Below are positions 6,682-12,389 of a stretch of DNA of 16,404 nt, one piece after another. The position numbers were made by a program, and so were the translations under genes. Source of the DNA: Planctomycetota bacterium (lineage in GTDB: Bacteria; Planctomycetota; UBA1135). The notes beneath the pieces were generated by a model that had not been told where the DNA came from, ran no database searches, and worked only from the letters and a program-made list of their open reading frames with translations. The stretch is from the NCBI GenBank assembly GCA_029243845.1, contig JAQWRF010000123.1:1-16404 (forward strand). The letters run 5' to 3'. The stretch's first letter is position 1, and every line of letters starts with the position of its first letter.

Positions 6682-7092
6682 ATGAGCGACCCCCTTCCTT
6701 CAATCTTCGGAATTGGCCTCGACTTAGTCGATATTCAGCGCCTAGCAAAGTCCATCGAGCAAGGTGGGCAGAGTTTTCTCGACCGCATCTTCACCGTGGC
6801 CGAACAAGTCTACTGCAGTGGCGGTAGCCGTCCGCATGAGCATTTTGCCGCACGTTGGGCAGCTAAAGAAGCGGCGATGAAAGTACTAGGAACCGGATGG
6901 TCTGGCGGCGTTGCGTTTACAGATTTCGAAGTGAGTAACGACAGTAACGGTCGCCCTTCCTTAACGGTGGCCGGGGTAGCGGCAACAGTGGCGAGCGAGA
7001 TGGGTATTGTCGAATGGCAACTATCGTTATCGCATACAGGTACTACGGCTGGCGCGGTGGTGCAGGCAATCAGCGCCCGCCCTGGCGCATAA
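6682..7092 (+). CDS. acpS: Holo-[acyl-carrier-protein] synthase
   Basis: AcpS transfers the 4'-phosphopantetheine arm of coenzyme A to a serine of acyl carrier protein, activating it for fatty acid synthesis. Family motifs are clear: GIGLDLVDIQR with the metal-binding Asp, FTVAEQVYC, and FAARWAAKEAAMKVLGTG with the catalytic WAAKEA. The C-terminal WQLSLSHTGTTAGAVV is the usual LSLSHxxxxA segment. ATG 6682 gives 136 residues, close to the family norm; the ATGs at 6661 and 6664 would add seven residues without similarity. It is divergent from uvrD. Its 3' end overlaps the convergent TPR gene by 23 bp. No Shine-Dalgarno is visible. Confidence 0.95.
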   Translation: MSDPLPSIFGIGLDLVDIQRLAKSIEQGGQSFLDRIFTVAEQVYCSGGSRPHEHFAARWAAKEAAMKVLGTGWSGGVAFTDFEVSNDSNGRPSLTVAGVAATVASEMGIVEWQLSLSHTGTTAGAVVQAISARPGA

Positions 7093-10365: not shown

Positions 10366-11277
10366 ATGACGAAAGACGACAAAGTATCTGTAGTGATAGC
10401 TCTGGGTGGCGGCGCAGCCCGCGGGATAGCACACATAGGGATATTAGAGGTATTAGAAAAGAATGGTATCGAAGTAAAAGGAATCGCCGGCACCAGTATT
10501 GGCGCTATCATCGGAGCTCTACGCGCCGCGAATACATTAGAAGACTTCGAGTCTTTCATTCGCCAACTAGATGCCAAAGGCATGCTTAAGCTTCTTGACC
10601 CAGTGGTGCCGCGATCTGGATTATTCGCCGGCAACCGCATTGCCAGAAAACTCGATGAGTTTATACCTGATATGGATATTGAAGATTTAGGCCTACCCTT
10701 CTGCGCAGTATCAACCAACATCACAAACGGAGAAGAGGTTTTGCATGCTTCAGGGCCGGTCAGGCTACCCATCCGTGCATCGATGGCTATCCCCGGAGTA
10801 TTCGCGCCAGTACAAGTGAATAACCAATGGCTCGTTGACGGCGGAGTGTCCTCACCCGTGCCCATCTCAGCCGCACGCAAATTATGTCCAGGCTTACCGG
10901 TGATTGCTGTCAATTTATTTAACACTAACCTGCCGTTCGAAGGCGATCTCGACCCTATCGATCAAACTTCAAAGGCAGAATTGAACCGCCTAGAGCGATT
11001 GCTGCTAAAAATGCGTCAATCAAACAAAGAAGGGCGCCCTGGCTTATTCGCCTCACTTAGTGACACCATTACGCATATGGAACAACGTATTTGCCGCTTC
11101 CAGATTGCCGCAGAAGAACCTGAGTTGGTTTTAGAGCCTGCGGTATTTGGCATTGGTTTGTTTGACTTCCATCAAGGCGATCAGGTGATTGCCGCAGGTA
11201 CGCGTTGTGCGCAGGCGATGGTGGATTCGGGTGAGCTTGACGTATTTAAACGTCGCTACGCCACAAAACGTCCGTAG
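10366..11277 (+). CDS. Patatin-like phospholipase
   Basis: This 303-residue protein is a patatin-family lipid acyl hydrolase with a Ser-Asp dyad. The glycine-rich oxyanion segment GGGAARGIAHIG is at residues 14-25. The nucleophile elbow GTSIG (42-46) carries Ser44. The dyad Asp is in DGG (158-160). The sequence resembles the RssA/NTE-like bacterial branch, predicted cytoplasmic, with no signal peptide. Natural substrates of this branch are mostly unknown, with phospholipid or lysophospholipid acyl ester cleavage the usual expectation. ATG 10366 was chosen over 10336, because the latter lies upstream of the -10 element and inside xdhC. Its 3' end overlaps the convergent adenosyltransferase gene by 32 bp. 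It appears to be transcribed alone. Confidence 0.94.
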   Translation: MTKDDKVSVVIALGGGAARGIAHIGILEVLEKNGIEVKGIAGTSIGAIIGALRAANTLEDFESFIRQLDAKGMLKLLDPVVPRSGLFAGNRIARKLDEFIPDMDIEDLGLPFCAVSTNITNGEEVLHASGPVRLPIRASMAIPGVFAPVQVNNQWLVDGGVSSPVPISAARKLCPGLPVIAVNLFNTNLPFEGDLDPIDQTSKAELNRLERLLLKMRQSNKEGRPGLFASLSDTITHMEQRICRFQIAAEEPELVLEPAVFGIGLFDFHQGDQVIAAGTRCAQAMVDSGELDVFKRRYATKRP

Positions 11278-11788
11278 TATCGTCTAACTTATTCGCATAA
11301 CGCGCTAAAGCGAACAACCAGTCGGACAAGCGGTTAAAGTACTTTATAAATTCGCCATCGATATTTTCATTAGCCGCGAGTTCGACTAAATCGCGCTCGA
11401 TGCGACGGCACACGGTCCGCGCAATATGCAGTCGCGCTGACAGTTCGCATCCACCTGGTAAAATAAAGTTTTTCAGTGGTTCTAGCTGAGCATCGAATCC
11501 GTCAATTTCGTTTTCGAGGGTCGCTACGCAATCTGTTGGCAGATTGGGCAAGTTGTCGTTGGCTTTGTCAGCTGGCGTCGCCAAGTGTGATCCTACATTA
11601 AAAATATGATGCTGTTCGCGACTAAGCAATGCGCTTAAAGGTGATTCGATTACCGCGCACCACCCCAGCACCGAATTCAATTCGTCGCTGCCGCCATAAC
11701 AAGAAACTCGCGGCGAAGACTTCGATACGCGCGACCCGCCATAAAGGCCAGTCTCGCCGTCGTCTCCGCCGCGAGTGTAAATTTTCAC
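11246..11788 (-). CDS. ATP:cob(I)alamin adenosyltransferase (PduO type)
   Basis: This enzyme transfers the adenosyl group of ATP to cob(I)alamin, making coenzyme B12. The 180-residue protein has the PduO/MMAB-type signatures: YTRGGDDGETGLYGG at the N-terminus (ATP binding), DELNS at about 35-39, FILPGG, then ARTVCRRIERD and YFNRLSDWLFALAR near the C-terminus. The length is normal. The start is GTG at 11788, one base after the stop of the peroxiredoxin gene, so the two are co-transcribed and probably translationally coupled. Neighbours give no sign of a B12-dependent enzyme. The 3' end overlaps the patatin gene on the opposite strand. Confidence 0.95.
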   Translation of the reverse strand: MKIYTRGGDDGETGLYGGSRVSKSSPRVSCYGGSDELNSVLGWCAVIESPLSALLSREQHHIFNVGSHLATPADKANDNLPNLPTDCVATLENEIDGFDAQLEPLKNFILPGGCELSARLHIARTVCRRIERDLVELAANENIDGEFIKYFNRLSDWLFALARYANKLDDTTDVLWRSDV

Positions 11789-11789
11789 T

Positions 11790-12389
11790 TTATAGTGAAG
11801 ATGCGTTATCAGCTAGGTATGAAGCTACGCCTTCGGCGGTAGGTTCCATGCCTGGCTTACCTGGTGCCCAGCCGGCTGGACAAACCATGCCGCTAGTTGC
11901 CAAGAACTCTAATGCATCCAACATGCGCAACACTTCGTCGATGTTACGACCTAGTGGCAAGTTGTTAACAGTTTGCGATTGCACCATACCTTCTTTATCG
12001 ATTAAGAAAGTACCGCGCATAGCGAATGTAGTTTCTTCATGCAACACGTCGTAGGCCTTAGTCATGCTGCGATCTTCATCGCATAACAAAGGGTACTTAA
12101 CCGGACCAATGCCACCTTCGTTGATAGCAGTATTGCGCCAGTTTGCGTGAGATTCTGCGTCGTCAATGGAGACACCCAAAACTTGGATGCCGCGCTTGTT
12201 GAACTCGTCCATACGATGATCAAAAGCGATTAATTCGGAAGGTCAGACAAAAGTGAAGTCTTTAGGGTAGAAGAACAGAGCCACATACTGACCTTTGTAA
12301 TCTGACAAAGAAACAGTTTGGGTTGATCCGTCTTCCATGATTGCAGTTGCTGAGAAAGCAGGTGCAGATTGGTTTACTAGAACAGTCAT
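11790..12389 (-). CDS. Typical 2-Cys peroxiredoxin with in-frame TGA at the peroxidatic residue: probable selenoprotein
   Basis: Peroxiredoxins of the AhpC/Prx1 group reduce hydrogen peroxide, organic peroxides and peroxynitrite with a peroxidatic Cys. Reading from ATG 12389 gives 199 residues interrupted only by TGA at codon 49 (12243-12245). Around it lies [10 protein letters not shown](TGA)-PSELIAF, the family active-site motif PxxxTxxC, with Pro42 and Thr46 present and the TGA replacing Cys. Other landmarks are intact: Arg125 in AMRGTFLID, and the resolving Cys170 in MVCPAGW, encoded by TGT. An extra Cys lies at 103 (PLLCDED). TGA is a normal stop in neighbouring genes. Selenocysteine at position 49 is the best reading; a sequencing error or fresh nonsense mutation is the alternative. 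Starting at ATG 12212 instead would leave 140 residues without the active site. It is followed by the adenosyltransferase gene after 1 nt. Confidence 0.85.
12201..12245 (-). promoter_or_regulatory. Candidate bacterial SECIS region downstream of the UGA
   Basis: Bacterial SECIS elements are hairpins just 3' of the UGA, inside the coding sequence, with a small apical loop that usually has a G in its first two bases. Here 12216-12224 can pair with 12204-12212 (minus-strand RNA) around loop CGU (12213-12215). That gives eight pairs with three G-U and one A-A mismatch. The loop starts 27 nt after the UGA. GAAUU (12236-12232) may pair with AGUUC (12205-12201) to close an outer stem, with a bulge; this uses one base of the first hairpin, so the two would adjust. 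An alternative upper stem is UCGU/ACGA with loop AUGG. All are weak by eye. Confidence 0.3.

Follow-up and report, generated by a model that had tools for sequence, protein, structure and literature searches.

A probable selenocysteine form of a typical 2-Cys peroxiredoxin in Planctomycetota, with a probable reversion to cysteine in a sister genus

A gene within the 16,404-nucleotide stretch of planctomycete DNA analysed here (the window) very probably encodes a typical 2-Cys peroxiredoxin with selenocysteine (Sec) as its peroxidatic residue, and we regard it as a very probable real selenoprotein gene. The initial annotation had proposed Sec at codon 49, a reading that is now strongly supported by several observations: an intact reading frame, a conserved column that holds either the same TGA or a Cys codon, a hairpin signal and, in the genome of origin, tRNA-Sec, SelB and part of SelD. 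The most interesting feature is that a sister genus has probably reverted from Sec to Cys, which can be tested.

The gene occupies 11790..12389 on the minus strand and comprises 199 codons, from an ATG at 12389 to a TAA stop at 11790-11792. Its translation is interrupted in frame just once, by the TGA of codon 49 (12243..12245, minus strand), which, as had been claimed, occupies the peroxidatic position of the motif YPKDFTFV(TGA)PSEL and which aligns with the Cys of homologues. Pfam matches AhpC-TSA over residues 5-137 (134 bits) and 1-cysPrx_C over residues 160-192, in line with the earlier description of a complete AhpC/Prx1-type frame. The AhpC-TSA domain with P-x3-T-x2-[C/U] and the C-terminal resolving Cys are both present, the latter encoded by the TGT of codon 170 (11880..11882, minus strand) in VCPAGW. 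Mechanical ORF calling recovers only a headless 140-residue frame from ATG 12212, exactly the misannotation that had been foreseen, and the protein database holds a near-identical (99%) 140-residue entry, P0022, with 56 member sequences.

The same TGA recurs in relatives. A protein search over 61 genomes, the genome of origin and 60 relatives, returned some match in 60. In 30 fetched loci (own and 29 relatives), alignment with Cys homologues, a check that the initial annotation had suggested, gave TGA at codon 49 in 16 and TGC or TGT in 14, always in the same column. Five further genomes were read at this codon (G017, Sec; G037, G041, G043 and G059, Cys), and the tally over the 61 genomes is 17 Sec and 18 Cys, with 26 either unread at the column or without a close homologue; in the congener G001, the contig match stops at residue 33. 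The 17 Sec genomes are spread over three families (f1, f6 and f8). Of 392 sampled genomes from the phylum, 91 had a match at E<=1e-50, and codon 49 is TGA in 15 of these: 11 seen previously and four of seven further flagged genomes that were read. The remaining three, G328, G281 and G391, have Cys at codon 49 and were rejected as Sec forms; the TGA flagged in them is probably the natural stop. Rows without the motif (L261, L063, L116 and L161) were dropped from the codon-49 reading. Four pairs of rows (L061/L041, L089/L256, L174/L255 and L240/L269) appear to be one gene each, so that counts over mixed sets include some genes twice.

A lone TGA in an otherwise good frame might also mean that a Cys peroxiredoxin has suffered a nonsense mutation at codon 49 or was misread there in sequencing, making the gene a pseudogene or the TGA an artefact, a reading that we consider scarcely credible. 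Sequencing error is excluded because the TGA recurs at the same column across loci, and its presence in 17 of the 61 genomes also speaks against a pseudogene. Between loci L001 and L029, the 48 codons before the TGA carry 22 synonymous and 9 amino-acid changes, and the 150 codons after it carry 59 and 21, respectively. Synonymous change thus predominates on both sides, against the pseudogene reading, and the codons there evolve as coding sequence under purifying selection. None of the 16 Sec loci examined contains a further in-frame stop in its 199 codons, in agreement with the earlier remark that the gene bears no other damage.

The code itself does not appear to be reassigned, as had been argued previously. 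Within the window TGA functions normally as a stop and terminates 5 of 16 frames checked (the four sites named in the initial annotation and 7070-7072), which weighs against codon 49 being read as another residue, such as Trp via reassignment or suppression, or acting as a regulated stop. We hold this alternative to be very improbable, although 13 database relatives (P0002 and P0010-P0021, with 238 member sequences in P0021) show Trp at column 49; presumably, gene callers translated the TGA as Trp. In the 30 loci read as DNA, by contrast, the column alternates solely between TGA and Cys codons, and Trp is not known to be capable of peroxidatic chemistry.

Beyond the TGA lies a SECIS-like hairpin (12193..12228, minus strand; 15-50 bases after the TGA, loop at about 12210-12214), for which the Sec genes here give evidence of both base pairing and constraint at synonymous sites. 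It is a small-loop hairpin placed just after the TGA, as in the bacterial SECIS type, with a conserved G in the apical loop (column 17 of A1); in the window gene an alternative register of the upper stem is also possible. Pairing was tested on 14 distinct rows of the 16 Sec rows, with L028 and L031 omitted as identical there to L001 and L030. The 13-pair structure, which is favoured by having been drawn up from the same Sec rows later tested, is paired in 97.3% of 182 cells, with double-sided changes in 11 cells. The percentage paired, the number of double-change cells and the covariation score were each matched by 0 of 500 shuffles, and two of five measures did not rise above them: pairs changed on both sides were matched in 260 of 500 shuffles and further pair types in 500 of 500. 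Shifting the structure along the rows gave at most 46.2% pairing.

In a shuffle test that draws synonymous codons from the same gene, the mean z was -1.57 in the 16 Sec genes versus -0.41 in 12 Cys genes outside genus g11 (Mann-Whitney p 5.7e-6, with related rows that are not independent); individually, just 5 of the 16 Sec genes fell at p<0.05. One Ala codon contributes its third base to a stem pair; all 16 Sec genes use GCT there, as do 2 of the 12 Cys genes outside g11 (Fisher p 5e-6). The structure does not fit every relative: 8 of 27 Sec rows, all from other clades (L057, L131, L089, L174 and L255-L258), form 3-6 pairs only, and 2 of 38 Cys rows outside g11 (L048 and L051) form 11 and 12 of the 13 pairs.

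A search of the same genome for selA, selB, selC and selD, also suggested by the initial annotation, was borne out in all but one part. The genome of origin encodes tRNA-Sec (74.7 bits, cut-off 47, anticodon UCA), SelB (265.9 bits, cut-off 242, in a 659-residue frame) and an incomplete SelD cut by a contig edge (194 bits, cut-off 125). The 85%-complete assembly yielded no SelA, a point in favour of a pseudogene, whereas the Sec machinery that is present counts against one. The missing SelA is most likely an assembly gap, because SelA is over cut-off in both congeners and is split there at contig ends. Across all 61 genomes, SelA exceeds its cut-off in 57, and tRNA-Sec and SelB each do so in 56; among the 17 with a Sec peroxiredoxin the corresponding numbers are 15 (not the genome of origin, G000, or G017), 16 (not G032) and 16 (not G006). 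The machinery is also present in most genomes with the Cys form, and having it therefore does not tell which form a genome carries.

UGA decoding by SelB and Sec-tRNA and the reduction of peroxides are standard family chemistry, with Se replacing S. From such general knowledge of the family we infer how the protein would be made and would act. SelB with Sec-tRNA(UCA) would bind the hairpin just past the UGA, so that Sec is inserted at codon 49, and the Sec49 selenolate would then attack a hydroperoxide. Cys170 of the other subunit in a dimer would resolve the resulting selenenic acid, giving a selenenyl-sulfide from which a thioredoxin-type reductant would regenerate the enzyme.

Sec peroxiredoxins as such are already known. 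The family of the window protein is evident from its sequence, and what distinguishes it is that it belongs to the Prx1 subfamily and has retained its resolving Cys. PrxU of Eubacterium acidaminophilum was reportedly described by Soehling in 2001. In the openly accessible parts of the sources, Prx (TxxU) is listed as a selenoprotein family with 12 cases in 2006 (PMC1794560), 43 in the Sargasso Sea (PMC1088965) and 91 in 78 organisms in 2016 (PMC5029168); the Sec Prx family also features in reviews from 2022 and 2026 (PMC9312934, PMC13188914), and Sec is described as rare among peroxiredoxins in a review from 2021 (PMC8533274). Another paper reports planctomycete selenoproteins, and its main text, in its accessible part, does not use the word peroxiredoxin (PMC4807772). 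The initial annotation had expected a typical 2-Cys Sec form in a probable planctomycete to be unusual; that holds only in part, as TxxU Sec peroxiredoxins in general are a listed and widespread family, and the distinctive point is the Prx1 subfamily with its retained resolving Cys.

A scan of a genome collection for the pattern FTFV-TGA-P[S/T]E gave at least 120 stretches from many phyla and, among the matches listed, 119 of 120 align with the window protein at E below 1e-10. Named Sec loci among the matches listed number 120, of which 117 have the strict motif and 113 are at least 150 residues long. In these 113, again among the matches listed, the resolving column is Cys in 21 and not in 92. 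In the near set, it is Cys in 20 of 21 Sec rows, with Ala in the exception, L040. That gene (from G008) is a Sec form inside the clade whose resolving Cys has been lost (VAPAGW), and it would work as a 1-Sec enzyme.

The window protein shares with PrxU (NF040737) a Sec at the peroxidatic position, an AhpC/Prx1-like fold and the FTFVUP motif, but it scores 156.5 bits against that model, below the cut-off of 270. Three of nine other Sec peroxiredoxins scanned (L105, L127 and L110) pass the model at 325-375 bits, and in these the resolving position is occupied by Met or Thr rather than by the Cys of the window protein. The best NCBIfam match of the window protein is peroxiredoxin C (NF011576), a model of the typical 2-Cys enzymes (Prx1/Prx2), at 231 bits, below the cut-off of 301; unlike those enzymes, it has TGA in place of the peroxidatic Cys codon. 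Among solved structures, the best matches are 1qq2 and 1qmv (thioredoxin peroxidase 2 and peroxiredoxin-2), which align through both Cys positions.

The history of the TGA column is most striking in genus g11. Its two genomes, G012 (locus L039) and G020 (locus L038), which belong to the same family, have TGC at codon 49. In an 89-row tree, which includes 20 named Sec loci and from which L061, L252, L250 and L269 were left out by choice, the distribution of Sec requires 7 changes of state (7-8 across bootstrap trees), and g11 sits on starred branches within a clade of 12 Sec rows. Two further trees, one of them built from a 33-row set, leave the exact sister of g11 open and still place it in a starred clade with L036, L037 and L040. 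Constraining the Sec rows together against g11 was rejected with 26 rows (AU p 2.8e-5) and with 33 chosen rows in which 4 of the 13 Trp rows were scored as Sec (AU p 2.65e-4), values that are generous as the tested group was named after the first tree had been seen. An AU p of 0.007 obtained with the Trp rows scored as non-Sec was badly framed and is superseded by the analysis that scores them as Sec.

The g11 genes also retain 12 and 13 of the 13 hairpin pairs. Against the Sec gene L037, the hairpin codons of L039 match at 12 of 14 positions versus 55 of 144 elsewhere (Fisher p 0.001), and those of L038 at 11 of 14 versus 56 of 145 (Fisher p 0.008); between L038 and L039 themselves the excess is small (9 of 14 versus 74 of 157). 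G012 has tRNA-Sec and SelB over cut-off and four pieces of SelA; decay of SelA in this Cys genome was considered and rejected, as the four pieces are separated by assembly runs of N. In G020, tRNA-Sec is present and the end of SelA lies at a contig edge, and SelB over cut-off was not found in this 73%-complete assembly.

We favour, as the probable account, that Sec and Cys have switched in both directions within one peroxiredoxin lineage, and that g11 returned to Cys by a single-base TGA-to-TGC change while keeping the hairpin and at least part of the machinery. If this is true, the g11 hairpin is either a fossil or a standing substrate for regaining Sec. That g11 instead retained an ancestral Cys while its sister lineages gained Sec separately is a less likely but still serious alternative. 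It accords with a general bacterial trend from Cys to Sec, with five such events and no Sec-to-Cys event in Prx in the accessible part of the source (PMC1794560), and with the near-complete hairpins of the Cys genes L048 and L051 outside g11. Some pairs of Cys genes also match better in hairpin codons than elsewhere, by less, in three of the four pairs compared (9 of 11 versus 96 of 147, 11 of 13 versus 110 of 145, and 11 of 12 versus 132 of 158); the fourth has no excess (11 of 14 versus 134 of 164). What weighs against an ancestral Cys is the nesting of g11 among the 12 Sec rows, the rejection of both constrained topologies, and the retained g11 pairs together with the excess match of their codons to L037. 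An open-access literature search found, in the accessible parts of its sources, no report of Sec-to-Cys reversion of this peroxiredoxin. Elsewhere in the same family, the Sec genes L054 and L259 (from G006 and G017) group apart on a starred branch of their own in the peroxiredoxin tree, which possibly reflects an independent gain.

These observations bear on wider questions. First, genes for selenoproteins readily escape correct annotation: this one appears as a headless 140-residue protein, and 13 database representatives show Trp at the critical column. Second, a clade with close Sec and Cys relatives, in which the resolving Cys is kept and the hairpin is visible in a Cys form, offers a direct test of the benefit of Sec in a typical 2-Cys peroxiredoxin. 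Finally, the same clade allows one to test whether a return from Sec to Cys is really as restricted in bacteria as reviews describe.

The genome of origin contains a further candidate, as 2 of its 9 AhpC-TSA matches carry a TGA, which also speaks for the Sec reading of the window gene. The second, P0122, lies on contig C266 (L003:1495-2010, minus strand) and encodes 171 residues with the motif TPGUTKE. It shares the AhpC-TSA Pfam family and a TGA at the peroxidatic position with the window gene but belongs to another subfamily, PrxQ/Bcp-like by its motif, with an N-terminus that by eye resembles a lipoprotein signal. An NCBIfam scan at E<=1e-30 gave no match for it, a result that says little. 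Among 30 loci fetched with P0122, TPGU is found in 9 (own and 8 relatives) and TPGC in 1, and 20 were missed by the motif.

Two other genes in the window were also noted. The frame at 3-1127 on the plus strand, whose start is cut by the window edge, resembles a TlpA/ResA thiol-disulfide oxidoreductase over residues ~182-308, below curated cut-offs, and no NCBIfam model matched its N-terminal part. Immediately downstream of the peroxiredoxin, beginning 1 base past its stop, is a gene for a PduO-type cobalamin adenosyltransferase (11246..11788, minus strand; TIGR00636, 177 bits, cut-off 108), which we note purely as genomic context. Within the fetched flank, a PduO-type homologue stands beside the peroxiredoxin gene in 16 of 29 relatives, with Sec and Cys forms alike.
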